From assembly GCA_030440445.1 (NCBI GenBank), contig CP098528.1, forward strand, positions 2,790,001-2,854,000: 64,000 nt of DNA, given 5' to 3'. Positions 28,765 to 55,907 of this stretch are shown here, one piece after another. The DNA comes from Halomonas sp. KG2 (GTDB lineage: Bacteria > Pseudomonadota > Gammaproteobacteria > Pseudomonadales > Halomonadaceae). Position 1 is the stretch's first letter. Each line of letters starts with the position of its first letter. The notes beneath the pieces are model-generated. The model had not been told where the DNA came from and did not search any database. It was given only the letters and a program-made list of their open reading frames with translations. Made by a program: the position numbers and the translations under genes.

Positions 28765-30828
28765 ATGGCAAAACTAATAGCAGGCTATACATCTCCCGGT
28801 ATTACCAAGATCAACGCGCTTGCTTCTTTTTTGCCTGAATACTCGCATTTTTCACGCATTAGGCCACTGAGCTCTAAACCGAATGCGGTTATTGGCTGGG
28901 GGCTCAAGCCCACAAGTGATGGTGCGCGAAATTATGCCGCTCGTCATCGCCTACCGTATGTCGCTCTTGAGGATGGCTTTCTTCGTTCTTTAGGACTAGG
29001 AGTCGAAGGTTATCAGCCTCATAGCATGGTCGTCGATTACACGGGCATCTATTATGACGCCTCTCGACCTAGTGATTTAGAAAACTGGCTTAATCATGCC
29101 ACGTTTGACGACGAGGAGCTTGCCCAGGCCACGCGCTGTATTGAGCAACTATCGCGTTATCGCTTATCGAAATACAACCACGCGCCTGATTACTCGCTTC
29201 CCGTTGCTGGAACTGACAATGTTGGAACTGACACAGTATTTGGGACTGACAATGTATTGGTGGTGGATCAAACGGCAGGCGATGCCTCTATTCACTATGG
29301 TGGCGCTAACGCAGACAGTTTTCGGCAGATGTTAGCGTGCGCTTTAAACAACCATCCTGATGCCGATATTTTTATTAAAGTACATCCTGACGTTATCGCA
29401 GGTAAAAAGCAGGGGCATCTAGCAGACGCCCACGAGAACCCTCGTTGCCATATCATCAGCGATAACATTAACCCCTGGGCACTGTTTGACCGAGTTAAAA
29501 CCGTTTATGTCGTCACCAGCCAGTTAGGTTTCGAAGCCCTGATGGCAGGTAAGCAAGTACACTGCTTTGGCCTGCCCTTCTATGCGGGATGGGGATTAAC
29601 GCACGACCAGCTCAGCTGTACACGTAGAAGGGTCTCTCGGCGCTTAGAAGAGGTATTTGCCGCCGCCTATCTTCGTTACACCCGATATGCCAACCCCTAT
29701 ACGGGCAAGGCCGCGACGCTGGAAGAAACGATTGCTCTGATTGCCGACCAAAAGCGCCAGCAGGAGCGCCTGCGTGGTGAGTGGTTAGCCTGCGGCTTCT
29801 CTTCATGGAAAAAGCGCTTCATTGGCCATTTTCTTGGCCCAGCGGCCAAGATTGATTATCAAAAAGAGCTGCCAGCCGCTTTTTCGGCGGATGTTGAAAA
29901 AACCAATCTGTTGGTGTGGTCCAGTCGTATTAACGATGACTTTAAAGCCCGTCATCGTGACCATATAGCGGCATTATGGCGAATGGAAGACGGCTTTATA
30001 CGCTCCGTGGGCCTTGGGGTAGACCTCACTCAGCCACTCTCTTTGGTCATTGATCGACAGGGCATTTACTACGACCCAAGCCAGCCCAGCGAGCTAGAAA
30101 CGTTGCTCAATAGCGCTGATTTCAGCGATGACTTATTAGAGCGAGCGGAACGATTGCGCGAACGGTTGGTCGCATTGAAGCTTTCCAAATATAATGTACC
30201 GGGCAAAGCAGCCATTGAATTGCCCGCCAACAAACACATTATTTTGGTGCCTGGCCAGGTAGAAAGCGATGCGTCAATTGCCACAGGGTCGCCAGAGATA
30301 AGTACTAACAGTGCGCTGTTAAAAGCCGTACGGGACACCAACCCCGATGCTTTTATCGTTTACAAAGCCCACCCTGACGTGATTACCGGTGCCCGTGTCG
30401 GAGCACTCGATACCAACGCCAAACGCCTGTATGATCTCGACGCTAGTCATATCGATATCACCATATTGTTAGCACGCGTTGATGCAGTGCATACCATGAG
30501 CTCGCTCACTGGTTTTGAAGCGCTACTTCGTCGACGCCAGGTATGCACCTATGGCCTTCCGTTTTATGCCGGCTGGGGGCTAACCCAGGATGCCATGCAC
30601 TGCCCGCGACGCAACCGGGCGCTGTCGCTGGATGCGCTAGTCGCAGGAACACTGCTTCTATACCCAAGCTACGTCGATCCCGGCTCTCGACAGCTGTGTA
30701 ATGCTGAAACGGTAGTCAGCCTGTTGGAGCAGGCTAAATTAGAACAAGTTAAGTCTCAAAAACATATGCTTACATGGAAGCAGCGGCTATATCGCTGCTA
30801 TCGTAACTTATTCATTGGAAGTCATTAA
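28765..30828 (+). CDS. kpsC: Capsule Kdo-transferase KpsC (WcbA-like)
   Basis: 687 residues, two homologous halves. KpsC enzymes are dual beta-Kdo transferases that build the poly-Kdo linker on the lipid anchor of group 2-type capsules at the inner membrane. The duplication is visible: ALEDGFLRSLGLGVEGYQPH / RMEDGFIRSVGLGVDLTQPL; GIYYDASRPSDLE / GIYYDPSQPSELE; DQTAGDASI / GQVESDASI; KVHPDVIAGK / KAHPDVITGA; GLPFYAGWGLT twice. First gene of a seven-gene operon. A small GTD(N/T)V repeat sits around residues 150-165. No strong ribosome site or ops element was found upstream. Confidence 0.92.
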   Translation: MAKLIAGYTSPGITKINALASFLPEYSHFSRIRPLSSKPNAVIGWGLKPTSDGARNYAARHRLPYVALEDGFLRSLGLGVEGYQPHSMVVDYTGIYYDASRPSDLENWLNHATFDDEELAQATRCIEQLSRYRLSKYNHAPDYSLPVAGTDNVGTDTVFGTDNVLVVDQTAGDASIHYGGANADSFRQMLACALNNHPDADIFIKVHPDVIAGKKQGHLADAHENPRCHIISDNINPWALFDRVKTVYVVTSQLGFEALMAGKQVHCFGLPFYAGWGLTHDQLSCTRRRVSRRLEEVFAAAYLRYTRYANPYTGKAATLEETIALIADQKRQQERLRGEWLACGFSSWKKRFIGHFLGPAAKIDYQKELPAAFSADVEKTNLLVWSSRINDDFKARHRDHIAALWRMEDGFIRSVGLGVDLTQPLSLVIDRQGIYYDPSQPSELETLLNSADFSDDLLERAERLRERLVALKLSKYNVPGKAAIELPANKHIILVPGQVESDASIATGSPEISTNSALLKAVRDTNPDAFIVYKAHPDVITGARVGALDTNAKRLYDLDASHIDITILLARVDAVHTMSSLTGFEALLRRRQVCTYGLPFYAGWGLTQDAMHCPRRNRALSLDALVAGTLLLYPSYVDPGSRQLCNAETVVSLLEQAKLEQVKSQKHMLTWKQRLYRCYRNLFIGSH

Positions 30829-30829
30829 G

Positions 30830-32065
30830 TTGAAGCAAAAGCGTGCATTCTTATTTCTCCAAGGCGTCTGCTCGCCCTTTTACCAGCGTCTCGCCCGTCG
30901 GCTAACCGACGATGGCCATCGCGTGGTAAAGGTTAACTTCAACGCTGGCGATATCGTCTACTGGCAGCGCACCCATAGCCAGAACCATTTGTTTCGCGGC
31001 CCGCTAAGCGAGCTACCGGCTTATATCCAGTCGTTGTGGCAACGTTACGACATTACCGATCAGGTGCTGTTTGGTGACCGGCGTCCGATTCACCGCCCCG
31101 CGGTTGACTTAGCATCCGCGGCTGGCATTCGTACCCACGTCTTTGAAGAAGGCTACTTTCGCCCTTTCTGGGTCACCCTTGAACGCGAGGGTGTTAATGG
31201 TCACTCGCTGCTGCCCAGAGACCCCAAGTGGTTTTTTGAAACTGGCAAAGCGCTGCCCAAACTCCCTGCACCGGTTCGCTTTCGTTCGTCTTTTAAAATC
31301 CGTGCCGCTCACGACATGTGCTATCACCTGGCGGGGTTAGCGAATCCTCTGGTGGCTCCCCACTATCGTAACCATGCGCCGATCACTGCGCCGGTGGAGT
31401 ATGCGGGCTACGCCAAACGCTTTACCTTACTTAAGTACTGGAAAAAGCGTGATGCTGCGCGGATTAAAAACCTTATCGAAGGCGGAAAGCCTTATTTTAT
31501 GCTGCCGCTGCAGCTCAACACCGATGCGCAGATTCGCGACCACTCACCTTATGCCAATATGGAAGAGGTGATGGATCACGTGATGGGATCCTTTGCGCTA
31601 AACGCCCCTAGTGATGCGCTGCTGTGTATAAAAAACCACCCGCTGGATATGGGGCTGGTTAATTACCCGAACATCATTAAAAGGCTGGAAGATTTTTACG
31701 GCCTACATGGGCGCATCATTTACCTGGAATCAGGCAATCTCAACCCATTGCTTAAACACGCCACGGGCACCGTCACAGTAAACAGCACGGTCGGCATTGT
31801 TTCCCTTGAAAAACAGTGTCCTACCTTTGCGCTCAGCGACCCCATCTACAATTTAGCGGGCCTCACCTACGAAGGCTCTCTAGACGAGTTTTGGCACCAA
31901 CCGCCGCTGCCCAGCCAAGCGCTCTTTGGCTATTTTCGCAACACGGTGATGTACACGACGCAAATTAATGGTGGTTTTTACTGCCAACCCAGTATCGATT
32001 TAGCGGTGAACAATGCAGCGCGTATACTAGAAGCCTGCCCTTCACCACTGGAGACGTTGCTGTGA
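30830..32065 (+). CDS. kpsS: Capsule Kdo-transferase KpsS (WcbO-like)
   Basis: 411 residues from a TTG at 30830, one base after the kpsC stop, with GGAAG eight bases upstream; a TTG at 30815 is the alternative. KpsS adds the first Kdo to lysophosphatidylglycerol-type anchors before KpsC extends it. Family blocks: KRAFLFLQGVCSPFYQRLAR, VFEEGYFRPFWVTLEREGVN, FMLPLQLNTDAQIRDHSPY, IKNHPLDMGLVNY and TVTVNSTVGIVSLEKQCPTF. Together with kpsC this shows that the host makes a Kdo-linked capsule-like polymer. It overlaps the next gene by four bases. Confidence 0.92.
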   Translation: MKQKRAFLFLQGVCSPFYQRLARRLTDDGHRVVKVNFNAGDIVYWQRTHSQNHLFRGPLSELPAYIQSLWQRYDITDQVLFGDRRPIHRPAVDLASAAGIRTHVFEEGYFRPFWVTLEREGVNGHSLLPRDPKWFFETGKALPKLPAPVRFRSSFKIRAAHDMCYHLAGLANPLVAPHYRNHAPITAPVEYAGYAKRFTLLKYWKKRDAARIKNLIEGGKPYFMLPLQLNTDAQIRDHSPYANMEEVMDHVMGSFALNAPSDALLCIKNHPLDMGLVNYPNIIKRLEDFYGLHGRIIYLESGNLNPLLKHATGTVTVNSTVGIVSLEKQCPTFALSDPIYNLAGLTYEGSLDEFWHQPPLPSQALFGYFRNTVMYTTQINGGFYCQPSIDLAVNNAARILEACPSPLETLL

Positions 32066-32880
32066 GCGTTGGTGTGAACGTTGATGTAACGACCTCTTAC
32101 CCTTCTAATGCACCCCGCTGCGTGCTGATTACCGGTGCCACCGGTGCAATAGGCGGGGCGCTAGCCCGTGCTTATGCAGCCCCTGCTACGCACTTGGTGC
32201 TACACGGCCGCAACCAGCAGACGCTTGAAGGGTTGGCGATGGCGTGTCGAGAAAAAGGCGCACAGGTGTCGCTATCATCAGCCAGCTTAACCGACCAAAG
32301 CGAACTCAACGACTGGCTTGATGCGCTATGTGCCGAGCACGTTCCAGATATTGTGATTGCCAATGCGGGCATCAATACTCATCCAAGCGCAAGCACGCTA
32401 GAACCGTGGGACGAGGTTCAAGCGCTACTCGATGTCAACTTGAAAGCTCCCATTGCAATGGCCCAGCGACTGGTTCCCGCCATGCAAGCACGCGGCAGCG
32501 GTCAATTGGTGTTTATTAGCTCGTTGGCAGGCTGGCACGGCCTACCGACAACGCCAAGCTACAGCGCCAGCAAAGCGGGCATCAAAGCCTACGGAGAAGG
32601 CCTAAGAGGCTTACTCGAACCCCATGGCATTGGTGTGACCGTGGTAATGCCTGGCTACGTCACTTCCGCCATGTGCAATGCCATGCCTGGCCCCAAGCCT
32701 TGGGAATGGCCGCCGGAGCGGGCTGCCAACGCCATACAACGTGGCATCACCGCTAACCGCGCTCGTATCAGTTTTCCCTTCCCGCTGAATTTCGGTACTT
32801 GGTGGCTGGCCGTGCTACCGGCAGGCATTTCTCAATGGCTCATCAAACGCCTTGGCTTTAATCATACCGGGGGCGCGTAG
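32062..32880 (+). CDS. Short-chain dehydrogenase/reductase (WcbP-like, possibly 3-ketosphinganine reductase-like)
   Basis: 272 residues, GTG start overlapping the kpsS stop. Rossmann motif LITGATGAIGGALA, NAG motif in VIANAGINTHP, catalytic Ser in VFISSLAGWHG and Tyr/Lys in SYSASKAGIKAYGEGLRG. The C terminus has a hydrophobic amphipathic segment (WWLAVLPAGISQWLI), suggesting membrane association, as in reductases acting on lipid substrates. In an operon with a PKS and an alpha-oxoamine synthase, reduction of a 3-keto aminolipid is a sensible role (inference). The family alone would allow many substrates. Confidence 0.85.
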   Translation: MSVGVNVDVTTSYPSNAPRCVLITGATGAIGGALARAYAAPATHLVLHGRNQQTLEGLAMACREKGAQVSLSSASLTDQSELNDWLDALCAEHVPDIVIANAGINTHPSASTLEPWDEVQALLDVNLKAPIAMAQRLVPAMQARGSGQLVFISSLAGWHGLPTTPSYSASKAGIKAYGEGLRGLLEPHGIGVTVVMPGYVTSAMCNAMPGPKPWEWPPERAANAIQRGITANRARISFPFPLNFGTWWLAVLPAGISQWLIKRLGFNHTGGA

Positions 32881-32881
32881 C

Positions 32882-34504
32882 GTGGCGTTCTTTCTATCAT
32901 CCACATTTATTAGCCCACTTTTAGTAGGCTTGTTAGGTAGTGTGCTGTTCGAGGCGCTGCTGAGCCCTCGCCCACAACCGTTTTGGAAACGCGGCATAGC
33001 CGCAAACACGCTGCACCTTGGTAGCTGGTTACTGCTGTTTGGCGCCTTTATGTTGCTTCTGCAACGCCCTTGGTTTGCTGTTGTTTTCATCTTATCGCTG
33101 CAACTCGTGGTCGTGCAGTCCAGCAACACTAAATCACGCACGCTGAACGAACCCTTTATCTGTCACGATTTTGAATACTTCTGGGATGCTATTCTGCACC
33201 CACGTCTGTATGTGCCTTTTTTCGGCATTGGTCTCGCCATTGCGGCTAGCAGCGCCGGTACGGTTGCCATTGGTAGCTTTTTGGTTTTTGAACCATCGCT
33301 GGTTCGCCAATGGGGTGGCACAGCGTTTCTAGTGAATAGCCTAGTGCTGATAGCAATCGGCACGCTGCTCGTTTGGCTGGGATGGCGAAAACTGCCGCCT
33401 ATCACGCTTACCCCTACCATTGACCTAAATCGACTGGGGCTATTTTCCAGCCTGTGGGCATACGGCATTGCCCTGATGCACTCACAACCGCCTACACCCG
33501 ACGCATCGCCCTTTCAGCCACTTTCTCAACATAACCTTGAGCTAGACGCCGATGCGGTAAAGCCAAACGTTGTGCTGGTACAAAGTGAATCGTTTTTTGA
33601 TCCTCGCCCCTGGTGTAGCGAGATTGCCGCTGACTTACTGCCGAATTATGATGCTACCTGCCAGGAAGCTATCGTGCAGGGAGCACTGAATGTACCCGCA
33701 TGGGGCGCAAACACTGTGCGCACCGAATGCGCCGTTTTAACTGGCATAGCGCCTGATGCCTGGGGAGCGCGCCAGTTTAATCCATACCGTACGCTGTCGC
33801 GCCACACACTTCCCAGCATTGCCAGTGCATTTAAAGCCCAAGGATATCGAACTGTTTGTGTTCATCCTTATCCCGCTACTTTCTACATGCGAGACAGCGT
33901 TATTCCCAAACTGGGGTTTGAGACGTTTATCGACATTAGTGCATTCGAAAGCCAGGATAAGCATGGTCAGTACACTGGTGACCAAGCCGTTGCACGTAGA
34001 GTTGGACGCCTGCTTGAAGATAACGATAATAGGCCTCTCTTTGTGTTTGTAATTACCATGGAGAATCACGGCCCTTTACACTTAGAAGCACCGGAAAAGG
34101 CCTCAGTAGCGTCCACATTGCCAGCAGCGCCGTGGCCGCTACCGCCTCATTTACGCGATTTGGCTGTTTACCTGCACCATTTGGGTGAATCAGATAAAAT
34201 GCTCGGAAGCGTTAAAGCAGCGCTAAACTCTGCTATAAGACCAGGGCTGCTGGGCTGGTACGGTGACCACGTACCCATACTGCCTGCCGCATATAGGCAC
34301 TATTCGCCTCCTGCTAGCAGCACCCCGTACATGATATGGTCAACGGAAGTAGATCGTAATTTGCATGATAAGACGCCCATTGAGCGCACCTCATGCACGC
34401 TGGAAGCAAACGAACTTGGCGTCTACCTATTTAAACGAGCGTTTGGACGCGATATAAGTAGCGATGTGATCAAGGCAGAACCAGAACCTCAGGAGCAAGA
34501 ATGA
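32882..34504 (+). CDS. LtaS/sulfatase-like membrane phosphotransferase (WcbQ-like)
   Basis: 540 residues from the GTG at 32882; the frame extends 30 bases further into the previous gene. About five membrane helices occupy residues 1-190. The extracytoplasmic alkaline-phosphatase-fold domain follows: NVVLVQSESFFDPRPW (metal Glu), GANTVRTECAVLTGIAP (candidate nucleophile T278) and GWYGDHVPILPA (metal Asp-His). LtaS-type enzymes transfer phosphoglycerol or phosphoethanolamine from phospholipids; sulfatases share the fold. Acting on the operon's glycolipid or capsule is likely (inference). The stop overlaps the PKS start (ATGA). Confidence 0.8.
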   Translation: MAFFLSSTFISPLLVGLLGSVLFEALLSPRPQPFWKRGIAANTLHLGSWLLLFGAFMLLLQRPWFAVVFILSLQLVVVQSSNTKSRTLNEPFICHDFEYFWDAILHPRLYVPFFGIGLAIAASSAGTVAIGSFLVFEPSLVRQWGGTAFLVNSLVLIAIGTLLVWLGWRKLPPITLTPTIDLNRLGLFSSLWAYGIALMHSQPPTPDASPFQPLSQHNLELDADAVKPNVVLVQSESFFDPRPWCSEIAADLLPNYDATCQEAIVQGALNVPAWGANTVRTECAVLTGIAPDAWGARQFNPYRTLSRHTLPSIASAFKAQGYRTVCVHPYPATFYMRDSVIPKLGFETFIDISAFESQDKHGQYTGDQAVARRVGRLLEDNDNRPLFVFVITMENHGPLHLEAPEKASVASTLPAAPWPLPPHLRDLAVYLHHLGESDKMLGSVKAALNSAIRPGLLGWYGDHVPILPAAYRHYSPPASSTPYMIWSTEVDRNLHDKTPIERTSCTLEANELGVYLFKRAFGRDISSDVIKAEPEPQEQE

Positions 34505-37500
34505 CTAAACGCGTTGCCATTATCGGCGCCGCCCATCGTTTCCCCGGCACCACACCTGAAACGTTCTGGCAGGACTTGCAAGCCGAAAAAGACCTCGTCA
34601 CCCAAGTGGCCCCCGACCGTTGGAGCCTCGATGCTTTCCTGCATCCGGACAAGCGCCATCCCGGCACCAGCGTAACGTTTGCCGCGGGTAGCCTAGGCGA
34701 TATAAGCGGATTCGACGCAGAGTTTTTTGGCATTTCGCCCCGTGAGGCGGCGAACATGGACCCGCAACAGCGCATGCTGTTAGAACTTACCTGGGAAGCC
34801 ATGGAAAGCGCGGGCATAGTGCCCAGCACCCTGCGCGGTAGCCAGTGTGGCGTTTTCCTTGGCATCGCCAGCCTTGATTATTCCTATCGCCTTGCCGATG
34901 ACATGTCGGCGATTGATGCCTCGACCGCGACAGGTAATACATCAAGTATCGCCTCTAACCGGCTTTCTTACGTCTTTGATCTACATGGCCCCAGCATGTC
35001 GCTGGATACCGCCTGTTCATCTTCCATGGTGGCATTCCACCAGGCATGCCAATCGATTCGCAGCGGCGAAACCAATATGGCGCTAGCAGGCGGCATCAGC
35101 CTGCACCTGCACCCCTATGGTTTTATTATTTTCTCGAAGGCCAGCATGCTCTCGCCCACTGGCCGCTGCCAAGTCTTCGATGAAGCCGGTAATGGTTACG
35201 TGCGCTCCGAGGGTGCCGGGCTGTTTTTACTAAAAGATTATGATCAAGCCGTGGCCGATGGCGATAATATCCTGGCCGTGGTAGCAGGCTCAGCGGTTAA
35301 CACTGACGGCCACAAATCTGGCCTGACGGTACCCAACCCTAGCGCCCAAATTGAGTTAATGCGCCGTGCCTACGAACAGGCAGGCATTTCGCCGGACGAG
35401 ATCGACTACCTTGAAGCTCACGGCACCGGCACCGCTGTTGGCGACCCCATTGAAACCCGAGCTATCGGCGAAGCACTTGGTAAGCATCGTAAAACACCGC
35501 TGCTGATTGGCTCAGTGAAAAGTAATCTCGGCCATTTAGAAACAGCGTCAGGCGTTGCCGGGCTCGCTAAGGCGCTGTACAGCCTGCAGCACCGTGAAGT
35601 GCCCGCTACGATTGGCATACGCAATCTTAATCCACGCATCAAATTTGATGAGTGGAACATTAGCGTTGTCACCAAAGCCCAAGCGCTCAAAAAGCAGGGC
35701 CGCTTGGTCATTGGCGTTAATTCCTTTGGTTTTGGTGGTGCCAATGCTCACGTCATACTGGAAAGTGCTCCCGAAAAAGCACCAGCGCCTCGTCAAGTGC
35801 CCGATGCTGCGCTACCAATTCGCATTAGCGCACGAAGCCAGGAAGCACTGGCGGCTAATGCTCGTGGACTAGCTAATTTCCTACGCGAAAGCGACCATGC
35901 TTTCTATGATACCGCTCACACGCTGAACAGCCACCGCGAACAACACACGTTTGGCGCGCTGTGTTTCGCCCAAACAGCGGAAGCCGCCGCCAGCGCGCTC
36001 AGCCAGTTTGCTGAAGGTGAAACCAACAGCGTTGTGACACTGGAGCGCTTAGCTAACGCCCGGGGCCCGGTGTTTGTTTACGACGGTAACGGCTGCCAAT
36101 GGGAAACCATGGGCCACGACCTATTAGACAGCGAACCCGTGTTTAGCGACGCCATTGATCGTGTGGATGCGCTGTTCCAGCAGCACGGTGATTTTTCGTT
36201 ACGTGACGAGCTTGCGGGGCGTAACCAGGCAGAGTCCAGCGAAGAAGGCCGCTTTGAACGCACCGAAATCGCTCAACCCGCCCTGTTTGCACTGCAGGTC
36301 GCGTTAACCGAATGGCTTAAATCCAAGGGCATCGTGCCCACCGCCGTATTCGGCCACAGCGTCGGCGAAGTTGCTGCCGCGTGGGCATCCGGTGCATTAA
36401 CGCTAGAAGACGCCGTTAAAGTTATTTATTACCGCAGCTTCTACCAGGGCAAAACCCGTGGTCTTGGGGAAATGACGGCTGTCGCCATCAGCGCGGAAGA
36501 GATCGCCCCCTGGCTTGAAAAACCCGAATTTAGCAATATTAGCCTGGCAGGCATTAACAGCCCCAAAGGCATTACGTTAGCGGGTGATCGTGACCAACTA
36601 AGCACCATCGAGGCAGCCCTTAGCGAACAGAGCACCTTTGCAAAGCGCCTGCCACTGGATTACGCCTTCCACAGCCCCGCCATGGACAGTATCAAAGCAG
36701 GCGTCGTGGAAGCCCTGGCTGACATTAGTCCACGCACCACCCAGATTCCTTATGTGTCCACCGTGACCAGCACCATCAGTGAAGGCACACAGCTGGATGC
36801 CCATTACTGGTGGCTCAATATTCGCGAGCCCGTCCTGTTTGATAACGCCACTACGGTGCTTATTGAGCAGGGTTACAATGTATTTGTAGAAGTCGGTGCC
36901 CATCCCATCCTGCGCCGCTATCTGAACGAGTCTCTGCGTCAGCAAGAGCGCAGCGGATTAGTGCTAGGTACTATTGAGCGCCACATGCCTGGCGTAGACG
37001 GTTTAACTCGCTGCCTCGGCCAATTGCTGCTAAGCGGATTAAGCCTCGATAGTCACCACTTCTTCCCCGTAGAAGGCCAGCGCGTCCTGCTGCCACGCTA
37101 CGCCTGGCAACGCACTCAACTTTGGGTGCAAGGCACCAACGATGGCCAAGGGTTGCTCGCGCGTTACTATCAGCACCCGCTACTTGGCTACCCATTGGCG
37201 CAGCAGGATCACACCTGGGAAAGCCAGTTGGATACCAAGCGCCAGCCATGGCTTGCCGATCACGTCGTCGGCGAAGGCGCCGTTTTCCCAGGCGCTGGGT
37301 TTGTGGAACTTACGCTAGCGGCGGCCCTGCAGCAGAAAGACACTCCGCTTTTAGACATTGAAGAGCTGGAGATTCGCGCTCCGCTACTGCTGGATGGCCA
37401 CAACGGGCGCTCCATGCGCTTAACGCTGGACCCAGACGATGGCCGCTTAGCCATCCACTCCCGCGAGCCAGCCACTGGTAGCGAATGGCAGTTAAATGCC

Positions 37501-40500
37501 GTTGCCCGCCGCATGCGCGAAAGCCGAGGCTTCTTACTCAACCGAAAAGCGCCAAGCCTGCCAAACCGCGCGCCAGACTATACCCTGGCCGAGCACTTGC
37601 AGATGGCCGAACGTATCGGACTACATTACGGACCTGCGTTCCAAGCCATTAGCCGTGGCTGGATTGAAGGCGACAGCGTCATTGGTGAAATTACCCTATC
37701 CGATAGTGTCCAGTCGCAGCTCGATACGCTGTACGTTCATCCGGGCATTCTGGATAGTGCTTTTCAGATGTTCATTCCGCTGCTGGCTCAACACAGCGAG
37801 TTTGCAGCCCAGCTAGCCTTCGTGCCGGTTCGTGTTGGGCGCATCCAGGTGAATGCTGAAGCCGGCGCGCCTGTGCTGGCACGAGCAGTAATGGGTAAGC
37901 GCGCACCTCACTCCTTCACCGCCGATTTCGAACTGTATGACGCTGCCGGCAACGCCGTGGCCGTGCTTAGTGAAACCCGCTTCAAGGCGATTCGCTTAAA
38001 CCGCGCTCATCACCAGCATTTTAGCTACCTGGATGTTGAGTTAACGCCTGCTCCGCTTAACGCGGCGACGCTTTCGCTGCCAGGCAGTGCAATCGCCCGG
38101 CTGGCTGGGCTAAGCGATGCGTTTACTGCCAGTACCGGTCAACGCTATGCCCAAGAAGTATCACCGCTGCTCGATAGCCTTAGTGAGGCCTTTGCTGGTG
38201 TTAATATTAACGCTGGCGAGGATCAGCTCGCACCGGAAACCATTTGGCAGTTACTGGTACAGGATTACCCCGATTATTTTGCCCCTATTCATATGGTGGG
38301 TCGCTTAGGGCTACACCGTGAGCGATTGACCAGCGGCAACGACACTCTTGAAAGCCTAGGCATTACCACTGAGCACCTAGCAGGCATTAATCGCGTCCTT
38401 ATCGGCGAAAACGGCTGGCAAGTGTTAGCCGCCGAGCTTGGCGCATTAATGGAAGCCACGCTAGACACGCTGCCCACCGGTCAGCGGCTGCAGTTGCTAG
38501 AAGCAGGCCCCTGTACCCCCGCCCTGGGGCAGCGACTGCTTGAACAATTAGCGAATACGGCGATCGCTAAAGATGCGCACCACTACCGTGCTATCACTAC
38601 CAGCGACACTGCTCGCCATCAGGCGGAACAGCTTCAAGAGCGTTTCCCGCTGATGGATATCCAGCCACTGGAAGATTCACTGCCAACGCTTAGTAATGCA
38701 GAGAAAGCCCCACTGGCGTTTATCAGCGTGGACGTGACCCAGCCTGAACGCACTCGCCAGTTGATTGAAGCGCTGCCAGGCCAGCTTGCACCAGGCGCTC
38801 AGGTAATGGTGATTGGTGTTCACCCGAGCCGTTGGCTTGATGACTTACTGGCGACACCCGGCATCGACCAAACCGCCCTGGAACAAGACAACCTAGTCGA
38901 GTGGTTAGCGCAACAAGGTCTCAGCGTTTCGCCGCCGGTTGAGCTGGAAGAAAATGGTGCTTACCTACTGCATGGCCAATACGCAGCCAGCAATGACTCA
39001 CTGACTCAAACGGCAGCAGAGGCATACCATTTGATTGTCTCAGACGCTGAGAACGAAGCACTTGCTGCCCAGCTTGCAGAGCGGTTAGGCACCGCCAACA
39101 TATGGCTAACCGTCAGCGATGCAACTCCGCAAGCCCTGTTAAATACAGCGCTAGGCGAACGCCAAGACGCACCTGCCGCACTCAATGTGATTGATCTGCG
39201 TGGGCTAAAGGGCTGTACAACCGCCGCTCAAACCCAACGCTGCTACATGGCACAACAGTGGTCACTGGCATTAGAAGCAAGTGGGCTTGAAAGCCAAGGC
39301 AGCCGTGTCACGCTTTGGCTGCCGACCCAGGCTGCCAGTACAGGCGATGACGCCGCACTATGGGGCTTTGGCCGTTCGCTCGCCAATGAAGCGGTTGGCC
39401 ATAGCGTCACGCTGATCGATCTACCAAACGCTCCCAGCGATGCGGCGTTAAACGCCTTTGCAGCGTCACTTGCTACGCCAGATAGCGAAAACGAGCTGGT
39501 AATAACGGTTGAAGGCGAGCGATTTGCTACCCGTCTTCGTACCCTGCCCGCGCCTCACCCGGTCAAGCAGGCAAGCGCTGCGCCTCATCAGGCAATGACG
39601 CTGGGCTTCGCCCTACCAGGGCAATTGCGTCAGCTGCAGTGGCGGCCACGCCCACTGCCTGAACTTGGCGCGGATGAGGTAGAAATTCGTGTCAAAGCGA
39701 CCGGGCTCAACTTCCGCGATGTGATGTACACCCTTGGCTTACTGTCTGATGAAGCAATTGAAAATGGCTTCGCTGGCCCAACCCTAGGGCTTGAGTTCTC
39801 GGGAGAGGTTCTCGCGGTGGGTGCCAATGTTCAGCACGTTGCGCCCGGCCAAGCGGTCGTGGGCTTTGGACCCGCCAGCTTCAGCGACCGCCTGATTGCT
39901 AGCCAGAATGCCGTCGCGCCCCTACCGGAAGGCGTCAGCTTTGCTGCTGCCGCAACAATACCGACCACATTCTTCACCGTGTACTACGCGCTAAAACATC
40001 TGGCGCGCCTGGAGCCCGGTGAGAAAGTACTGATTCACGGTGCCGCTGGCGGTGTGGGTATTGCCGCGCTGCAAATTGCCCAGTGGCTGGGCGCCGATAT
40101 CTACGCCACCGTTGGGTCTGAAGAGAAGCGCGACTTCCTGCGCCTTATGGGTGAAGAGCGTATCTACGACTCCCGCTCGCTGACGTTTGCCGAAGAGATC
40201 CTAGAGGATACGCAAAGCGAAGGTGTTGATGTCGTACTGAACTCCTTGGCAGGCGAAGCGATTAACCAAAACCTCCGTGCATTACGCCCGTTTGGTCGCT
40301 TCCTGGAATTAGGTAAACGGGACTTCTATGAAAACACTCATATTGGCCTGCGCCCGTTCCGCAACAACTTAAGCTACTTCGGCATCGACTCCGACCAGTT
40401 GATGAAAGTGCAGCCTGCCCTCACCCAGCGCCTGTTCGGTGAAATGATGGCGCTATTTAACGATGGCACACTCAGCCCGCTGCCGTTCACGGCGTTCAGT

Positions 40501-41817
40501 CACAACCAAGTGATTGATGCCTTCCGTTATATGCAGCAAGCACGCCAGATCGGCAAAGTGGTGGTCACCTACGAACAGCCTATTGCTCCACCGCGTAACG
40601 AGCTATTAGGCACCGGCGCTATGACACTCGCAGCCGACGCCAGCTATCTAGTGACCGGTGGTTTGGGTGGCTTTGGCCTAAAAACGGCTCAATGGTTAGT
40701 CAGCAAAGGGGCACGTCAGCTTATCCTGCTAAGCCGCAGCGGCCCCGCTAGCGAAGAAGCCCAAGCCGCTATCGCGACCTTTGAAGCCCAAGGCGTGAAG
40801 GTACTGGCTGCAGCCTGTGATATCACCGATTACGACGCGCTAGCAAGCGTTATGGCGCGCGTGCAACGCGAACTTAGCCCACTGCGTGGCATCGTGCATG
40901 CCGCAACAGTGATCGACGACGGCTTGATTCGTAACTTAGATGCCGAGCGTATTCAAAAGGTGCTGGCTCCTAAAATTGACGGTGCCCGCCATCTGGATGC
41001 TCTCACCCAGGACATCCCACTCGACTTCTTTGTGCTCTACTCCTCGGCGACCACGCTATTTGGCAACCCAGGACAGGCCAATTACGTTGCCGCCAACCAC
41101 TGGCTAGAAGCCTTTGCTGCCCGCCGTCGCGCCGCTGGTCTTCCTGCTACCTGCGTCCGCTGGGGGGCCATTGAAGATGTCGGTTTCTTGGCGCGCAATA
41201 CGCGTACACGGGATGCATTGCAAGAGCGCTTAGGCGGTTCTGCGCTGCGCTCTGATGATGCCCTCAGCGTGCTCGAACAAATGCTGCTGACGCCTGGGCC
41301 AAGCCTTGGTGTTCTTGAGCTTGAATGGGGAGCACTGGCGCGTTTCTTGCCCACCGCCCAGGCACCGCGGTTTAACGAAATTGCCCGCACCAGCGATGAT
41401 GATGGCAGCGTTGACCACGATGACGATATCAGCGCGCTACTGGCCGACCTCTCGCCGGAAGAGCTGCATAGCACCATTACCGACCTACTGCGCGCAGAAC
41501 TGGCCAGTATCCTGCTGATTGATGAAGAGAAAATCGACATCAATCGTTCGGTATACGATATGGGGTTTGACTCGCTCATGGGCGTTGAATTGATGACTGC
41601 CATCGAGAACCGCCTGAACGTGCAAGTACCGGTGATGGTGTTGAGTGAAGCGTCAACGCTGAACAAACTGGCAGGTGTGCTGATTCAAAAATTACATCAG
41701 CATGACAATGATGTTGAAGAAGCGCCACAAGATGCGTTAGCCTCTCTGGCCGCTCGCCACGGGGCGGACGGACTCAACAATGAGTCGGCTTCAACATCTA
41801 CCACCGAGACACCATGA
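34501..41817 (+). CDS. Single-module highly reducing type I polyketide/fatty acid synthase, KS-AT-DH-(psi-MT)-ER-KR-ACP (WcbR-like)
   Basis: 2438 residues. KS (1-425) has the triad C172 in DTACSSS, H307 in EAHGTGT and H345 in NLGHLE. AT (about 510-830) has nucleophile S620 in GHSVGE and AFH at 722-724, favouring malonyl units. DH (about 880-1180) has H921 in HVVGEGAVFPG and D1085 in GILDSAFQ. About 1190-1680 carries no working motif, only LQLLEAGPC at 1331-1339 where a methyltransferase would have its SAM loop. ER (about 1690-2025) has GAAGGVG at 1847, KR has GGLGGFG at 2053 and Tyr2195, ACP carries S2358 (GFDSL). No thioesterase is present. All reducing domains are intact, so the expected product is a saturated acyl chain on ACP, made iteratively. 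Confidence 0.92.
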   Translation: MTKRVAIIGAAHRFPGTTPETFWQDLQAEKDLVTQVAPDRWSLDAFLHPDKRHPGTSVTFAAGSLGDISGFDAEFFGISPREAANMDPQQRMLLELTWEAMESAGIVPSTLRGSQCGVFLGIASLDYSYRLADDMSAIDASTATGNTSSIASNRLSYVFDLHGPSMSLDTACSSSMVAFHQACQSIRSGETNMALAGGISLHLHPYGFIIFSKASMLSPTGRCQVFDEAGNGYVRSEGAGLFLLKDYDQAVADGDNILAVVAGSAVNTDGHKSGLTVPNPSAQIELMRRAYEQAGISPDEIDYLEAHGTGTAVGDPIETRAIGEALGKHRKTPLLIGSVKSNLGHLETASGVAGLAKALYSLQHREVPATIGIRNLNPRIKFDEWNISVVTKAQALKKQGRLVIGVNSFGFGGANAHVILESAPEKAPAPRQVPDAALPIRISARSQEALAANARGLANFLRESDHAFYDTAHTLNSHREQHTFGALCFAQTAEAAASALSQFAEGETNSVVTLERLANARGPVFVYDGNGCQWETMGHDLLDSEPVFSDAIDRVDALFQQHGDFSLRDELAGRNQAESSEEGRFERTEIAQPALFALQVALTEWLKSKGIVPTAVFGHSVGEVAAAWASGALTLEDAVKVIYYRSFYQGKTRGLGEMTAVAISAEEIAPWLEKPEFSNISLAGINSPKGITLAGDRDQLSTIEAALSEQSTFAKRLPLDYAFHSPAMDSIKAGVVEALADISPRTTQIPYVSTVTSTISEGTQLDAHYWWLNIREPVLFDNATTVLIEQGYNVFVEVGAHPILRRYLNESLRQQERSGLVLGTIERHMPGVDGLTRCLGQLLLSGLSLDSHHFFPVEGQRVLLPRYAWQRTQLWVQGTNDGQGLLARYYQHPLLGYPLAQQDHTWESQLDTKRQPWLADHVVGEGAVFPGAGFVELTLAAALQQKDTPLLDIEELEIRAPLLLDGHNGRSMRLTLDPDDGRLAIHSREPATGSEWQLNAVARRMRESRGFLLNRKAPSLPNRAPDYTLAEHLQMAERIGLHYGPAFQAISRGWIEGDSVIGEITLSDSVQSQLDTLYVHPGILDSAFQMFIPLLAQHSEFAAQLAFVPVRVGRIQVNAEAGAPVLARAVMGKRAPHSFTADFELYDAAGNAVAVLSETRFKAIRLNRAHHQHFSYLDVELTPAPLNAATLSLPGSAIARLAGLSDAFTASTGQRYAQEVSPLLDSLSEAFAGVNINAGEDQLAPETIWQLLVQDYPDYFAPIHMVGRLGLHRERLTSGNDTLESLGITTEHLAGINRVLIGENGWQVLAAELGALMEATLDTLPTGQRLQLLEAGPCTPALGQRLLEQLANTAIAKDAHHYRAITTSDTARHQAEQLQERFPLMDIQPLEDSLPTLSNAEKAPLAFISVDVTQPERTRQLIEALPGQLAPGAQVMVIGVHPSRWLDDLLATPGIDQTALEQDNLVEWLAQQGLSVSPPVELEENGAYLLHGQYAASNDSLTQTAAEAYHLIVSDAENEALAAQLAERLGTANIWLTVSDATPQALLNTALGERQDAPAALNVIDLRGLKGCTTAAQTQRCYMAQQWSLALEASGLESQGSRVTLWLPTQAASTGDDAALWGFGRSLANEAVGHSVTLIDLPNAPSDAALNAFAASLATPDSENELVITVEGERFATRLRTLPAPHPVKQASAAPHQAMTLGFALPGQLRQLQWRPRPLPELGADEVEIRVKATGLNFRDVMYTLGLLSDEAIENGFAGPTLGLEFSGEVLAVGANVQHVAPGQAVVGFGPASFSDRLIASQNAVAPLPEGVSFAAAATIPTTFFTVYYALKHLARLEPGEKVLIHGAAGGVGIAALQIAQWLGADIYATVGSEEKRDFLRLMGEERIYDSRSLTFAEEILEDTQSEGVDVVLNSLAGEAINQNLRALRPFGRFLELGKRDFYENTHIGLRPFRNNLSYFGIDSDQLMKVQPALTQRLFGEMMALFNDGTLSPLPFTAFSHNQVIDAFRYMQQARQIGKVVVTYEQPIAPPRNELLGTGAMTLAADASYLVTGGLGGFGLKTAQWLVSKGARQLILLSRSGPASEEAQAAIATFEAQGVKVLAAACDITDYDALASVMARVQRELSPLRGIVHAATVIDDGLIRNLDAERIQKVLAPKIDGARHLDALTQDIPLDFFVLYSSATTLFGNPGQANYVAANHWLEAFAARRRAAGLPATCVRWGAIEDVGFLARNTRTRDALQERLGGSALRSDDALSVLEQMLLTPGPSLGVLELEWGALARFLPTAQAPRFNEIARTSDDDGSVDHDDDISALLADLSPEELHSTITDLLRAELASILLIDEEKIDINRSVYDMGFDSLMGVELMTAIENRLNVQVPVMVLSEASTLNKLAGVLIQKLHQHDNDVEEAPQDALASLAARHGADGLNNESASTSTTETP

Positions 41818-43148
41818 CCGTAAAGCGCTCTGAACTGAAACGACAGCTGCTGGAACAGGCACGCAAGCGCCCAACGCCCCGTGCCACCAGCACCCAGGCC
41901 CCTGCTATCTCAGGCGTCGAGGCAACTCGGACGGTTCCCGAGCGCTTTACACGATTTGATGCCCACCCGGGCTATCAACAGCTCGTCATGATGCGCCAAG
42001 GCGCAAAACAGCTAGGGCTGATAGACCCATTTTTTAAAGTCCATGACGGCCTCGCTGGTGCTACTAGCGTGATTGATGGGCATGCGTGCATCAATTTCGC
42101 CAGCTACAACTACCTGGGTTACTCCGGTGACCCACGGGTTGTTCAAGCGGCATCCGACGCCGCGGCTCACTACGGCACCTCCGTTTCTGCCAGTCGCGTC
42201 GTCTCGGGTGAACGACCTATTCACGGTGAACTAGAGCAAGCGATCGCCAACATCTATGGTGTTGAAGACGCGGTTGTTTTTGTCAGCGGTCACGCAACAA
42301 ATGTGTCTACCCTTGGCTACCTATTGGGCCCGAAAGACCTCGTGCTTCACGACGAGTACATCCACAACAGCTCGTTAGTCGGCGCACAGCTTTCCGGCGC
42401 CAAGCGTATATCTTTCAGCCATAACGATCCCGCCGCACTTGATGCTCTGTTAAGTCGTCATCGCCATCAATTTGAACGCGTTCTTGTCGTCATTGAAGGG
42501 CTTTACAGCATGGATGGCGACATCCCCGACCTGCCCCGCTTTATTGAACTAAAGCAACGCCATCAGGCGTGGCTGATGGTCGATGAAGCGCATTCGTTTG
42601 GCGTCATGGGCGACACTGGCCTAGGCTTACGAGAGCACTTTGCGATTGATCCAACCGATGTTGATATCTGGATGGGGACGATGAGCAAAACGCTGTCAGG
42701 CTGCGGGGGCTATATCGCAGGCAATAAAGCACTGGTCGAAACACTGCGCTACTTTGCACCCGGCTTTCTTTACAGCGTCGGCATGCCCGCTCAAGTGGCC
42801 GCGCCTTCGCTTAAAGTACTGGAATTGATGCCCCAGGAAACCGAGCGCGTTACCCAGCTACAGGCAATTTCACGCTACTTCCTCGAGCAGGCTCAAGCTA
42901 GAGGAATGGACACCGGCCACAGTATTGGCTCTGCTGTCGTGCCCGTTATTGTGGGAAGCTCGCCGCTCGCGGCACACCTCTCCCACGCACTGTTTGCACA
43001 GCACATTAACGTGCAGCCTATTCTGTATCCTGCGGTTCCCGAGAAAAGCGCTCGGCTGCGCTTTTTTCTTTCCTGTGAACACACGAAAGACCATGTTGAC
43101 CAAACGCTGGATGCACTCGCGCTACTGCTCGCAAACGCCAAAGGGTGA
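41814..43148 (+). CDS. Alpha-oxoamine synthase (AONS / serine palmitoyltransferase family, WcbT-like)
   Basis: 444 residues, overlapping the PKS stop by four bases. PLP fold-type I enzyme that condenses an acyl thioester with an amino acid with loss of CO2. Motifs: ASYNYLGYSGDPRV, GTSVSASRVVSGERPIHGEL, HDEYIHNSSLVGAQLSGAKR, MVDEAHSFGVMG (Asp and His) and TMSKTLSGCGGYIAG with Schiff-base K292. The N terminus has about 45 extra basic residues before the catalytic fold. It follows a PKS with no thioesterase, so it probably releases the acyl chain from the ACP as an amino ketone. A biotin role is unlikely: no bio genes are nearby. The amino acid partner (serine, glycine or alanine) is not predictable. 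Confidence 0.88.
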   Translation: MTVKRSELKRQLLEQARKRPTPRATSTQAPAISGVEATRTVPERFTRFDAHPGYQQLVMMRQGAKQLGLIDPFFKVHDGLAGATSVIDGHACINFASYNYLGYSGDPRVVQAASDAAAHYGTSVSASRVVSGERPIHGELEQAIANIYGVEDAVVFVSGHATNVSTLGYLLGPKDLVLHDEYIHNSSLVGAQLSGAKRISFSHNDPAALDALLSRHRHQFERVLVVIEGLYSMDGDIPDLPRFIELKQRHQAWLMVDEAHSFGVMGDTGLGLREHFAIDPTDVDIWMGTMSKTLSGCGGYIAGNKALVETLRYFAPGFLYSVGMPAQVAAPSLKVLELMPQETERVTQLQAISRYFLEQAQARGMDTGHSIGSAVVPVIVGSSPLAAHLSHALFAQHINVQPILYPAVPEKSARLRFFLSCEHTKDHVDQTLDALALLLANAKG

Positions 43149-43151
43149 TTT

Positions 43152-43679
43152 ATGGAGGAATTCGAAACCCAAGCAGAGCGGATTAACCCCTGCTGGTATG
43201 TGATTCAATGCAAAGGCGGCGAGTCATTTCGTGCCGCTGAACATCTCACCAATCAAGGCTATGAGGTGTTCCACCCAGTGCTTAACGCTAAACGTAAGCG
43301 CCAAGGCAAACTCACGCTGGTGACCGAGCCACTTTTCCCCTACTACCTGTTTATTCGGCTGGATCAGACCATCAGCAACTGGCGGCCAATTCGCTCTACC
43401 CGCGGCGTACTGCGCCTACTCACCTTTGGCAACACGCCCATCGCCGTGCCGAATGCCTTGGTAGATACCCTTCGCGCACAGCCGCATCATCAGGAAGGCA
43501 GCCACAGCTACTTCTGCGCAGGGGAAAAAGTGACGATCACCGACGGCCCCTTCAAAGATTTAGAAGCCGTTTTCAAACGTTGCAAAGGCGAAGAGCGCGC
43601 CATTGTGCTGCTTAACGTGCTACAACGCCCACAGGATGTCGAGATCTCTGTTGATAGCTTACAGAAGCGCGAGGGGTGA
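43152..43679 (+). CDS. rfaH: NusG-family transcription antiterminator, RfaH-like
   Basis: 175 residues. NGN domain (about 13-105): CWYVIQCKGGESFRAAEHL, QGYEVFHPVLNAKRKRQGK, TEPLFPYYLFIRLDQTISNW and IRSTRGVLRLLTFGN. C-terminal KOW domain: CAGEKVTITDGPFKDLEAVF and LQRPQDVEISVDSLQK. RfaH-type paralogs let RNA polymerase read through long surface-polysaccharide operons. It starts 3 bases after the oxoamine synthase stop with AAGGGTGA upstream, so it is the last gene of a roughly 15-kb operon and may control it. Confidence 0.87.
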   Translation: MEEFETQAERINPCWYVIQCKGGESFRAAEHLTNQGYEVFHPVLNAKRKRQGKLTLVTEPLFPYYLFIRLDQTISNWRPIRSTRGVLRLLTFGNTPIAVPNALVDTLRAQPHHQEGSHSYFCAGEKVTITDGPFKDLEAVFKRCKGEERAIVLLNVLQRPQDVEISVDSLQKREG

Positions 43680-46071: not shown

Positions 46072-46623
46072 ATGCGTTTATTGAACGTCTCTCGCACTGC
46101 TAGCCTTGGCACTTTGGCAGCGACACTTTTTGTTGCATCCAGCTTAGCCCAAGCCCAGAGCGTTACCGGCACCATTGATGCCTCTATCACCTTGGAAGCC
46201 GCTTGCTCGGTTGGCGGCACTGAAGGTACGGGGGTCGACTTCGGCAGTCTAGCCTTTGGCAGCCACTCAGCTCTATTCGGCCAGGTCAATGCTGAGATAG
46301 CGGGCGGTAACGGCATCACTATACTCTGCTCACCGGGCGTCACGCCGACCTTTACCTTGCTGGAGGGAGCTAATGATGGCCAAGCAGCTCCTGCTATTCA
46401 TGCAATGGAAAATACTCCAGATGGCAACACGTTTGTCGGCTATACGCTATATACCGATGCTAACCACACGAACCTGCTTGCTCTAAGCGGAACCATCGCA
46501 CTAGACCCATTTACGGATGACACCACTCAATCCATTGCGCTTTATGGCCAAGCCTTCGGTAACCCAGGCAATCTTCCTGCTGGCACCTACGAAGACATAC
46601 TACAAGTTCAGCTAACTTGGTAA
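46072..46623 (+). CDS. Spore coat U-domain pilin subunit (CsuA/B-like)
   Basis: 183 residues, signal peptide ending LAQAQS. SCPU domain: ITLEAACSVGG (first Cys), VDFGSLAFGSHSALFGQVNA, GITILCSPGVTPTFTLLEG (second Cys, disulfide), and PAGTYEDILQVQLTW at the C terminus, the usual donor/edge strand. It is the first gene of a five-gene Csu-type archaic chaperone-usher operon that builds thin adhesive pili. A strong AGGAGC precedes it, as suits the major subunit. Confidence 0.87.
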   Translation: MRLLNVSRTASLGTLAATLFVASSLAQAQSVTGTIDASITLEAACSVGGTEGTGVDFGSLAFGSHSALFGQVNAEIAGGNGITILCSPGVTPTFTLLEGANDGQAAPAIHAMENTPDGNTFVGYTLYTDANHTNLLALSGTIALDPFTDDTTQSIALYGQAFGNPGNLPAGTYEDILQVQLTW

Positions 46624-46629
46624 CGCTGA

Positions 46630-47151
46630 ATGATCAAAGGCTGGCAACTTGTCAGCTCAATCGTGATGGTGGCGGGGCTTGCTCAAGCCTCGCCAACGGA
46701 TACTTTTATAGTATCGGCCACCATCACACCGGGCTGCTTAGTTAACCAAGAGATCCCGTCTAATGGCGTACAGCTTGGCATAATAGGTAGCTTAGCCTTC
46801 GGTGCCGCATCAGCGCTTTCCCAAGAAACGCGCAGTGCGTCACTGGTCACCTCAGGCTCTTTTACGTTGAGTTGCACACCAGGGATTTCGTTAACACTGC
46901 GAATTGATGGTGGCCAGCAGCCGGACGGAGAGCGCCAACTCAAACGCGCCAATGGCAACGAAGTGCTTGCCTATCAGCTCTATCGAGACGCCGCTTTTCA
47001 GAGCGCCATAGGAATCAGCCAGCCAGTATCCGTAGACACGTCGACAACACCAGACAATATTACCCTGCCGGTCTGGGGCAGGGTTATGCTACCCGGCAAT
47101 CTGCCTGCTGGCAGCTATAGCGATGAATTAGTGGTCACTTTAGAGTGGTGA
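46630..47151 (+). CDS. Spore coat U-domain pilin, second subunit
   Basis: 173 residues, signal peptide ending AQAS. SCPU pattern as in the previous gene: ATITPGCLVN, IGSLAFGAASALSQETRSAS, FTLSCTPGISLTLRIDGGQQ and PAGSYSDELVVTLEW. It follows after 6 bases and is a diverged paralogue, likely CsuA or CsuB position. No strong ribosome site, so expression is probably coupled. Confidence 0.82.
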   Translation: MIKGWQLVSSIVMVAGLAQASPTDTFIVSATITPGCLVNQEIPSNGVQLGIIGSLAFGAASALSQETRSASLVTSGSFTLSCTPGISLTLRIDGGQQPDGERQLKRANGNEVLAYQLYRDAAFQSAIGISQPVSVDTSTTPDNITLPVWGRVMLPGNLPAGSYSDELVVTLEW

Positions 47152-47192
47152 TATCTCATCGATGAGATAATAGGAAACCAAGGGGAATACCG

Positions 47193-47966: not shown

Positions 47967-47974
47967 CCATTCGT

Positions 47975-55860: not shown

Positions 55861-55907
55861 GCCACCCCCTATATTGATTAATGTAGTCGCTGGTAAGGCA
55901 CTCGCTT

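Follow-up and report, generated by a model that had tools for sequence, protein, structure and literature searches.

A capsule-type operon of Halomonas sp. KG2 and a possible polyketide-derived phosphoglycero-sphinganine acceptor for its KpsS

We analysed a 64,000-nucleotide stretch of Halomonas sp. KG2 (contig CP098528.1, positions 2,790,001 to 2,854,000; G000:C1:2790001-2854000, hereafter the window), in which positions 28765-43679 hold a seven-gene plus-strand operon for KpsC, KpsS, a short-chain dehydrogenase/reductase (SDR), an LtaS-like membrane enzyme, a type I polyketide synthase (PKS), an alpha-oxoamine synthase (AOS) and RfaH. We propose tentatively, with confidence a little short of even, that the operon may stand for a widespread class of Gram-negative capsules that is anchored by a PKS-derived phosphoglycero-sphinganine and has its own KpsS subfamily, and that the sphingolipids of Pseudomonas and the rkp/wcb capsule lipid genes may belong to one pathway. 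The narrower claim, that phosphoglycero-sphinganine, as a look-alike of lysophosphatidylglycerol (lyso-PG), would be both the acceptor of KpsS and the capsule anchor, we judge to be evenly balanced. In the pathway that we envisage the iterative PKS would build a long saturated acyl chain and keep it on its acyl carrier protein (ACP), the AOS would join the chain with L-serine to give 3-ketosphinganine, freeing it from the PKS, and the SDR would reduce the ketone to a very-long-chain sphinganine. The LtaS-like enzyme would move phosphoglycerol from phosphatidylglycerol (PG) to this base, KpsS would add the first 3-deoxy-D-manno-octulosonic acid (Kdo) to the head group of the resulting phosphoglycero-sphinganine, and KpsC would extend the Kdo linker for the polysaccharide; RfaH, encoded at the end of the transcript, would let RNA polymerase traverse a long operon for export and polysaccharide genes, with its ops site ~60 kb away. 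The three steps to sphinganine would follow those that others demonstrated with a Pseudomonas homologue (where reduction by the SDR is presumed), the phosphoglycerol product was proposed in P. fluorescens MYb115 from its mass and its formation is assigned by us to the LtaS-like enzyme, priming by KpsS and KpsC on that product is what we infer, and the RfaH step would rest on a conserved ops site.

The operon is real, on one strand and with nearly all its genes overlapping: five of the six junctions overlap (by 14, 4, 29, 4 and 4 bases, measured from the first start codon of each open reading frame (ORF)) and a 3-base gap precedes the RfaH gene. ORFs, Pfam and NCBIfam confirmed all seven gene calls of the initial annotation and their order. 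The PKS and AOS genes are adjacent with a 4-base overlap and the SDR and LtaS-like genes are linked to KpsS, as expected of a capsule lipid module of rkp-1/wcb type, and the KpsC and KpsS homologues are those of a group 2-type capsule dependent on an ATP-binding cassette (ABC) exporter. The window KpsS scored 268 bits against the NCBIfam KpsS equivalog, under its curated cut-off of 600, and belongs in our trees to the KpsS clade that accompanies the lipid module. Among the matches listed, the closest protein relatives were from Halomonas and Vreelandella. A sample of 398 genomes of the phylum includes eight others of the same family, of which three carry the PKS at E≤1e-100 (G050, G395 and G308) and five, one of them of the same genus, lack it at that threshold. 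The first six genes have the same order in all three PKS-bearing relatives, and the two of the same genus, G050 and G395, keep all seven with RfaH last; no RfaH match was found in the G308 stretch fetched. Since this order is conserved at 48–89% protein identity, it is not a matter of chance.

We rejected the idea that the operon is a novelty peculiar to Halomonas sp. KG2, as the gene set is widespread. In Sinorhizobium rkp-1 the PKS, AOS, SDR, LtaS-like and KpsS genes stand in a row, the same set as in the window (we take these to be rkpA-rkpG-rkpH-rkpI-rkpJ, letter by letter; the genes themselves were seen, and the LtaS-like one, which is unannotated, was recovered by profile). The rkp-1 stretch differs from the window in its gene order and in having no KpsC match and no RfaH, and identities to the window proteins are 24% for the SDR, 26% for the LtaS-like protein, 35% for the first half of the PKS, 38% for KpsS and 48% for the AOS. 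The initial annotation had placed the set in the Burkholderia pseudomallei capsule locus; a wcb-type locus of Caballeronia does combine SDR-LtaS-PKS-LpxC-AOS with an exporter, and two other Burkholderia genomes have LtaS-PKS-LpxC-AOS, but the set is specific neither to Burkholderia nor to the window, rkp-1 being the same. Unlike the window, these Burkholderia-type loci have an LpxC-like gene between PKS and AOS, and neither KpsC, KpsS nor RfaH was found in the Caballeronia stretch fetched. The LpxC-like deacetylase gene lies beside the AOS gene in Burkholderia-type loci at L074 13018-13944 and in L199, L203, L207, L208, L211, L212 and L216; such a gene, together with a Caballeronia stretch that has no KpsC or KpsS match, likely means a different primer chemistry there. 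Within the family of the window, the Halomonas piscis genome is annotated with WcbQ, WcbR, KpsC, KpsD and KpsS (PMC10752968) and for Cobetia marina a wcb operon is described that follows downstream of its kpsSC genes (PMC11766843). The group 2/3 capsules of E. coli share KpsC, KpsS, KdsB and KpsM/T/E/D-type genes with the window genome; in the UTI89 K1 stretch no PKS, AOS, SDR or LtaS-like gene is annotated and its KpsS falls in another clade, the acceptor of E. coli KpsS being given as (lyso)PG (PMC7694667).

By Pfam the PKS has the KS, AT, DH, ER, KR and ACP domains of an Sga-type pathway, and the same scan found no thioesterase or methyltransferase in it; the KS, AT, ER and KR motifs were recognised by pattern, and the exact DH motif pattern was unmatched, though Pfam called that domain. 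The best solved relatives of the AOS are bacterial serine palmitoyltransferases (3a2b/8guh, 225 bits). Its lysine for pyridoxal 5'-phosphate (PLP) and the partner residues, whose roles we take to be the usual ones, are invariant in our alignment A1, as expected of an Sga-type enzyme, and its substrate residues were compared through alignment only. PKS and AOS form a single polypeptide in Planktothrix and in G169, and such fusions support a direct hand-over from ACP to AOS. The chemistry was reported for P. fluorescens MYb115, where the iterative PKS SgaA and the AOS SgaB make C24, C26 and C28 sphinganines, purified SgaB is nearly exclusive for serine (alanine and glycine were hardly taken) and the SDR SgaC presumably reduces the ketone (PMC12134224); WcbR/RkpA is a recognised PKS family (PMC3908369). 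Like MYb115 PfSgaAB(C), the window has a predicted iterative PKS, an AOS and an SDR, and its products are predicted to be of the MYb115 class, long-chain sphinganines and phosphoglycerol-sphinganines. By analogy the PKS, AOS and SDR of the window would in all likelihood make a long-chain sphinganine, and the sequence of PKS chain, oxoamine synthase and ketone reduction set out in the initial annotation is thereby backed by the biochemistry of a homologous Pseudomonas pair.

For the LtaS-like enzyme, sequence and fold searches ranked GacH, LtaP and LtaS first, with GacH the closest solved structure and phosphoethanolamine transferases and sulfatases next in the fold search. Its structure model (predicted local distance difference test score (pLDDT) 87.7, predicted template modelling score (pTM) 0.87) has five long helices, read as membrane-spanning, followed as in LtaS by a sulfatase-fold domain with the catalytic Thr and metal ligands. 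All 26 LtaS-like proteins that we aligned, three of them from PKS-negative genomes, share residues E246, T288, H338, R347, H406, D472 and H473, and these residues align with catalytic and glycerol-phosphate-binding positions of LtaS, where we take the Thr to be catalytic, the metal ligands to hold the metal and the His/Arg/His set to bind glycerol phosphate. This fold, the Thr, the metal ligands and the His/Arg/His set are shared with LtaS, LtaP and GacH, but the acceptors of those enzymes are teichoic acid, glycolipid and polysaccharide, whereas that of the window enzyme is presumed to be sphinganine; it scored 25 bits against the NCBIfam LtaS equivalog, far under the cut-off of 970. MYb115 also yields products 154 Da heavier than its sphinganines, most likely phosphoglycerol sphingolipids and assigned by mass, and the sections of PMC12134224 covered here name no transferase for the addition. 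Since 154 Da is glycerophosphate minus water, the increment points to LtaS-type chemistry. From these matches, residues and model we think it probable that the LtaS-like enzyme adds phosphoglycerol to sphinganine, which gives the phospho head group foreseen in the initial annotation a phosphoglycerol type; the product would resemble lyso-PG, as a single chain with the same head group.

Gene neighbourhoods tie this lipid module to KpsS. With a module scored as adjacent PKS and AOS (AOS at least 380 bits) and KpsS at E≤1e-20, KpsS was found in 14 of 18 PKS-AOS genomes against 44 of the 380 others in the 398-genome sample (p 9e-10), or in 14 of 20 when the weaker cases G041 and G157 are counted. 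An SDR gene lies within 6 kb of KpsS in 11/14 module genomes and 0/23 others, and an LtaS-like gene in 10/14 and 3/23, several of these KpsS stretches ending at contig ends. PKS-AOS does not invariably come with KpsS (G012, G324, G169 and G322 rule this out), nor is the LtaS-like gene exclusive to PKS-AOS genomes, as G303, G317 and G327 show. In G303 (L170), G317 (L169) and G327 (L312), where the KpsS is of the module clade and no PKS-AOS passed the thresholds applied, the LtaS-KpsS pair may act on another lipid.

In Pseudomonas, a plasmid locus runs PKS, AOS, PhyH, KpsC, GNAT, LTA synthase family protein, SDR, KpsS and KpsC (KpsC and KpsS called by profile), then phosphotransferase, KpsF, KdsB and KdsA, with identities to the window proteins of 60% for the AOS, 51% for the SDR, 50% for KpsS, 49% for the PKS, 44% for the LtaS-like protein and 40% for KpsC. 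In the genus to which Pseudomonas sp. S37 belongs, such an AOS occurs in 14 of 298 genomes, and 13 of these neighbourhoods were fetched. KpsC is near PKS-AOS in 12 of the 13. An LtaS-like gene is likewise present in 12, counting a shortened one in L285 and one in L296 that runs off the end of its stretch, while 10 neighbourhoods have SDR and KpsS. Most of the fetched Pseudomonas PKS-AOS loci are thus Kdo-capsule loci. The published MYb115 genes (PKS RS19805, AOS RS19800, SDR RS19775) have the same locus-tag spacing as those of the plasmid (RS26445, RS26440, RS26415), and from this equal spacing we take the sga genes to sit likely inside a capsule-type locus too, with PhyH, KpsC, GNAT and LtaS-like genes predicted to lie between sgaB and sgaC and a KpsS gene past sgaC. 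PMC12134224 presents sga as a two-gene metabolite cluster, unlike the capsule operon of the window, and the strings 'capsul', 'polysaccharide' and 'LTA synthase' do not occur in its main text. The Pseudomonas loci also add a phytanoyl-CoA dioxygenase-like gene (7/13) and a GNAT gene (12/13), for example at L073 15372-16415 and 18531-19133 and in L285-L296, possibly for hydroxylation and N-acylation of the sphingoid base.

Wider afield we examined the best 80 of at least 582 confirmed AOS-profile loci from named organisms, with flanks of at most 10 kb, some of them short, a full PKS taken as at least 1700 bits and a loose SDR cut-off of 60 bits. Forty-four loci have a full PKS; among these a Kps gene is present in 29, KpsS or KpsC in 17, an LtaS-like gene in 22 and an SDR in 19, so that at least one such gene accompanies 37 and none lies within the flanks of the other 7. 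Of the remaining 36 loci, the majority of which belong to organisms other than Pseudomonadota or lie on short contigs, 5 carry a Kps gene. Planctomycetota (Rhodopirellula, Pirellula and relatives) carry AOS proteins 49–56% identical to the Pseudomonas AOS (L214, L215, L217, L219, L221-L223, L227, L230, L237, L241 and L265), and no PKS of the window type was found in the DNA around the loci examined.

KpsS meets the lipid and adds the first Kdo, and KpsC only extends the Kdo chain, so a different acceptor would be expected to tie the module more tightly to KpsS than to KpsC. A quick tree of 72 KpsS proteins placed every one of the 29 module rows in a single clade of 32 (Shimodaira-Hasegawa-like approximate likelihood ratio test 96) whose named module rows come from alpha-, beta- and gammaproteobacteria, with E. 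coli K1 KpsS and 25 KpsS of family f55 outside. Its three non-module members, G303, G317 and G327, are the same three of 23 PKS-negative genomes in which KpsS adjoins an LtaS-like gene. No clade made up solely of PKS-positive KpsS was recovered; two or three PKS-negative rows fell inside it. As a control we built KpsS and KpsC trees from the same 28 genomes and compared counts of label changes with shuffles: the module label changed 2 times on KpsS (2–3 in bootstraps) and 5 times on KpsC (4–6), with a shuffled mean of ~9, and a single module clade was rejected for KpsC (approximately unbiased test p 1e-76) and not for KpsS (p 0.063). When the label was widened to module or LtaS-like neighbour, KpsS needed 1 change (clade support 91/85) and KpsC 6. 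These trees suggest a closer fit to the lipid module for KpsS than for KpsC, one that weakens when five rows are dropped, and together with the co-occurrence they support the tie between lipid genes and KpsS drawn in the initial annotation. The KpsC proteins of L132-L135 and L139, module loci outside the class of the window, match the profile over only ~355–437 residues; they look single-module and may build a shorter Kdo linker.

Several observations weigh against phosphoglycero-sphinganine as the acceptor of KpsS. Once five rows that are long or rich in gaps are removed, KpsS and KpsC each need 3 changes under the plain PKS label, although the LtaS-or-PKS label still separates them (1 against 4); the KpsC label is itself clustered beyond most shuffles (5 changes, mean 9.3), support for the KpsS clade is moderate in the careful trees (91/85 and 82/86), and the LtaS-or-PKS label was fixed partly after a tree had been seen. 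Since linked genes may also travel together, the KpsS pattern is not proof. KpsS is absent at E≤1e-20 from four PKS+AOS genomes (G012, G324, G169 and G322), and these, together with the LpxC-like gene of Burkholderia, imply that the lipid can serve where no KpsS is seen; L297, one of the 13 Pseudomonas loci, shows KpsC, KpsS, SDR and an LtaS-like gene nowhere within its 20 kb. An LtaS-like gene adjoins KpsS without PKS-AOS in G303, G317 and G327, so the enzyme is not bound to sphinganine, and the S. meliloti SDR is just 24% identical to that of the window. The topology is also awkward. LtaS-type catalytic domains face the periplasm and KpsS is cytoplasmic; the positive-inside rule gave an ambiguous result for the LtaS-like protein, and its periplasmic side is taken from family knowledge. 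The linear order of LtaS-like enzyme and then KpsS in the initial annotation conflicts with this and would require the lipid to be flipped inward or the steps to run in a different order, and no flippase is among the seven genes.

Part of this evidence suits a free outer-membrane phosphoglycero-sphinganine that is co-regulated with the capsule, perhaps stabilising or exporting it, while KpsS and KpsC start on PG. A lipid completed at the outer leaflet would suit the periplasmic side, no KpsS reached E≤1e-20 in four PKS+AOS genomes, and MYb115 sphinganines and phosphoglycerol-sphinganines occur as free lipids (PMC12134224); but the module, or its LtaS-like gene, is tracked better by KpsS than by KpsC (less so with the five rows dropped), and SDR and LtaS-like genes adjoin KpsS even where PKS-AOS is on another contig (G095, G151, G271 and G185), and we consider a companion lipid of this kind somewhat unlikely. 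The LtaS-like enzyme might instead decorate the exported polysaccharide, with a PKS-AOS-SDR anchor that has no phosphoglycerol and KpsS adding Kdo onto sphinganine itself. GacH adds glycerol phosphate to the group A streptococcal carbohydrate, and as the closest solved structure it favours such a role, as do the G303, G317 and G327 pairs and the fact that periplasmic action requires no flip. This is set against the phosphoglycerol-sphinganines reported, by mass, in MYb115 (PMC12134224), the LtaS-like gene that Pseudomonas loci of the MYb115 type offer as a candidate for making them, and LtaS-like genes that follow the KpsS clade although the polymers presumably differ between organisms; we regard decoration as unlikely. 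That PKS-AOS makes a secondary metabolite or a signal, its genes lying beside capsule genes by chance, we find very improbable, even though the sphingolipids of MYb115 affect a nematode host and are described as secondary metabolites (PMC12134224) and PKS-AOS pairs also occur in Actinomycetota and other phyla with no Kps genes in flanks of at most 10 kb: KpsS is present in 14/18 module genomes against 44/380, 29 of the 44 full-PKS named loci have a Kps gene in flanks of that size, and rhizobial rkp-1 mutants are described as capsule-deficient (PMC4881576).

The last operon gene points to the remainder of the capsule system (Table 1). RfaH and ops control the group 2/3 capsules of E. coli. The best solved relatives of the window RfaH are RfaH chains, and no other protein of the genome passes the NCBIfam RfaH cut-off. 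The initial annotation was right that kpsMT/E/D lie outside the window, but they are in the genome, as ABC2_membrane, ABC_tran and Poly_export genes of a KpsM/T/E/D-type exporter ~50–63 kb downstream, and a reading without an exporter is rejected. A long minus-strand block, which also holds a dTDP-sugar isomerase and a UDP-sugar dehydrogenase, leads away from the export operon downstream. A perfect 13-base ops element, GGCGGTAGCGTGC, lies before this operon on the same strand as the lipoprotein gene and ends 19 bases before its start, and the same 13-mer is found just upstream of lipoprotein-kpsD in 3/3 genomes with RfaH in the operon, each having one or two copies against 0–1 for the reversed control. 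As a point against, an 11-base ops pattern is at control level genome-wide (22 against 23 reversed), so the claim stands on place and conservation. As ops is conserved before lipoprotein-kpsD and this RfaH alone passes the cut-off, the operon RfaH very probably controls the distant export and polysaccharide operon. No ops was found before the PKS operon itself, ops-like matches within the window being near chance (19 seen, 14 expected), and in G308 the 13-mer lies inside a kpsD-like coding region, where it may be chance. A second perfect ops 13-mer stands at G000:C1:1917618-1917630, followed by CTTTTTTA.

Table 1. Genes of the operon (positions in the window) and of the distant export and polysaccharide region (positions on the contig)
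Feature	Position	Strand	Description
kpsC	28765..30828	+	687 aa; dual-module beta-Kdo transferase, KpsC-like; Pfam PF05159 in two stretches, 318 bits total
kpsS	30815..32065	+	416 aa; first beta-Kdo transferase, KpsS-like; Pfam PF05159, 270 bits; trees
SDR	32062..32880	+	proposed 3-ketosphinganine reductase, SgaC/RkpH-like; Pfam adh_short
LtaS-like membrane enzyme	32852..34504	+	proposed phosphoglycerol transferase, RkpI/WcbQ-like; Pfam Sulfatase PF00884
PKS	34501..41817	+	2438 aa; type I, fully reducing, predicted iterative, RkpA/WcbR/SgaA-like; Pfam
AOS	41814..43148	+	PLP alpha-oxoamine synthase, proposed serine palmitoyltransferase-like, RkpG/WcbT/SgaB-like; Pfam Aminotran_1_2
RfaH	43152..43679	+	antiterminator, final operon gene; Pfam NusG; NCBIfam TIGR01955, 168 bits (cut-off 144.5)
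lipoprotein	G000:C1:2896151-2896573	-	export operon; ops element just before it
KpsD-like	G000:C1:2894424-2896148	-	Poly_export/SLBB
KpsM-like	G000:C1:2893479-2894288	-	ABC2_membrane
KpsE-like	G000:C1:2892378-2893475	-	without Pfam match; identified via matches to relatives
KpsT-like ABC ATPase	G000:C1:2883641-2884522	minus-strand block	ABC_tran
KdsB-like	G000:C1:2856497-2857333	minus-strand block	CTP_transf_3

Two further groups of genes lie downstream of the operon within the window. At 46072-51339 there is a chaperone-usher pilus cluster of spore-coat-U (SCPU) type with SCPU, a PapD-like chaperone and an usher (ORFs 46072, 47193 and 47975 were scanned), and at 53066-58723 on the minus strand, at the near end of the minus-strand capsule block, are sugar-nucleotide genes for a GATase/SIS protein (glmS-like), an inositol-phosphatase family protein (perhaps CysQ-like), a nucleotidyl transferase (galU-like) and a phosphoglucomutase.

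Much of what is assembled here was known before: the gene set, the notion of a special capsule lipid, the kps-wcb sets of Halomonas piscis and Cobetia marina, and the sphinganine chemistry published in 2025. A role as 'specific lipid carrier' had already been proposed for the rkp-1 set, and the special lipid of the initial annotation, a new capsule anchor or companion lipid, is not new in that respect; in the parts of that literature covered here, the rkp/wcb lipid genes figure as the pathway of such a carrier with its structure not stated. In a non-exhaustive search of open-access literature without preprints, no published link of sphinganine or WcbR to a capsule anchor was found among the matches listed. 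What is new is the joining of the rkp/wcb capsule lipid genes with the PKS-sphingolipid pathway as a precise claim; since that pathway has been tested, the joining gives a definite predicted molecule that can be looked for by mass spectrometry, and the LtaS-like enzyme becomes a candidate for the phosphoglycerol transfer step. If the proposal is true, KpsS enzymes would use more than one lipid, bacterial sphingolipids would be structural anchors of polysaccharides, and the host-active sphingolipids of Pseudomonas would be capsule precursors.

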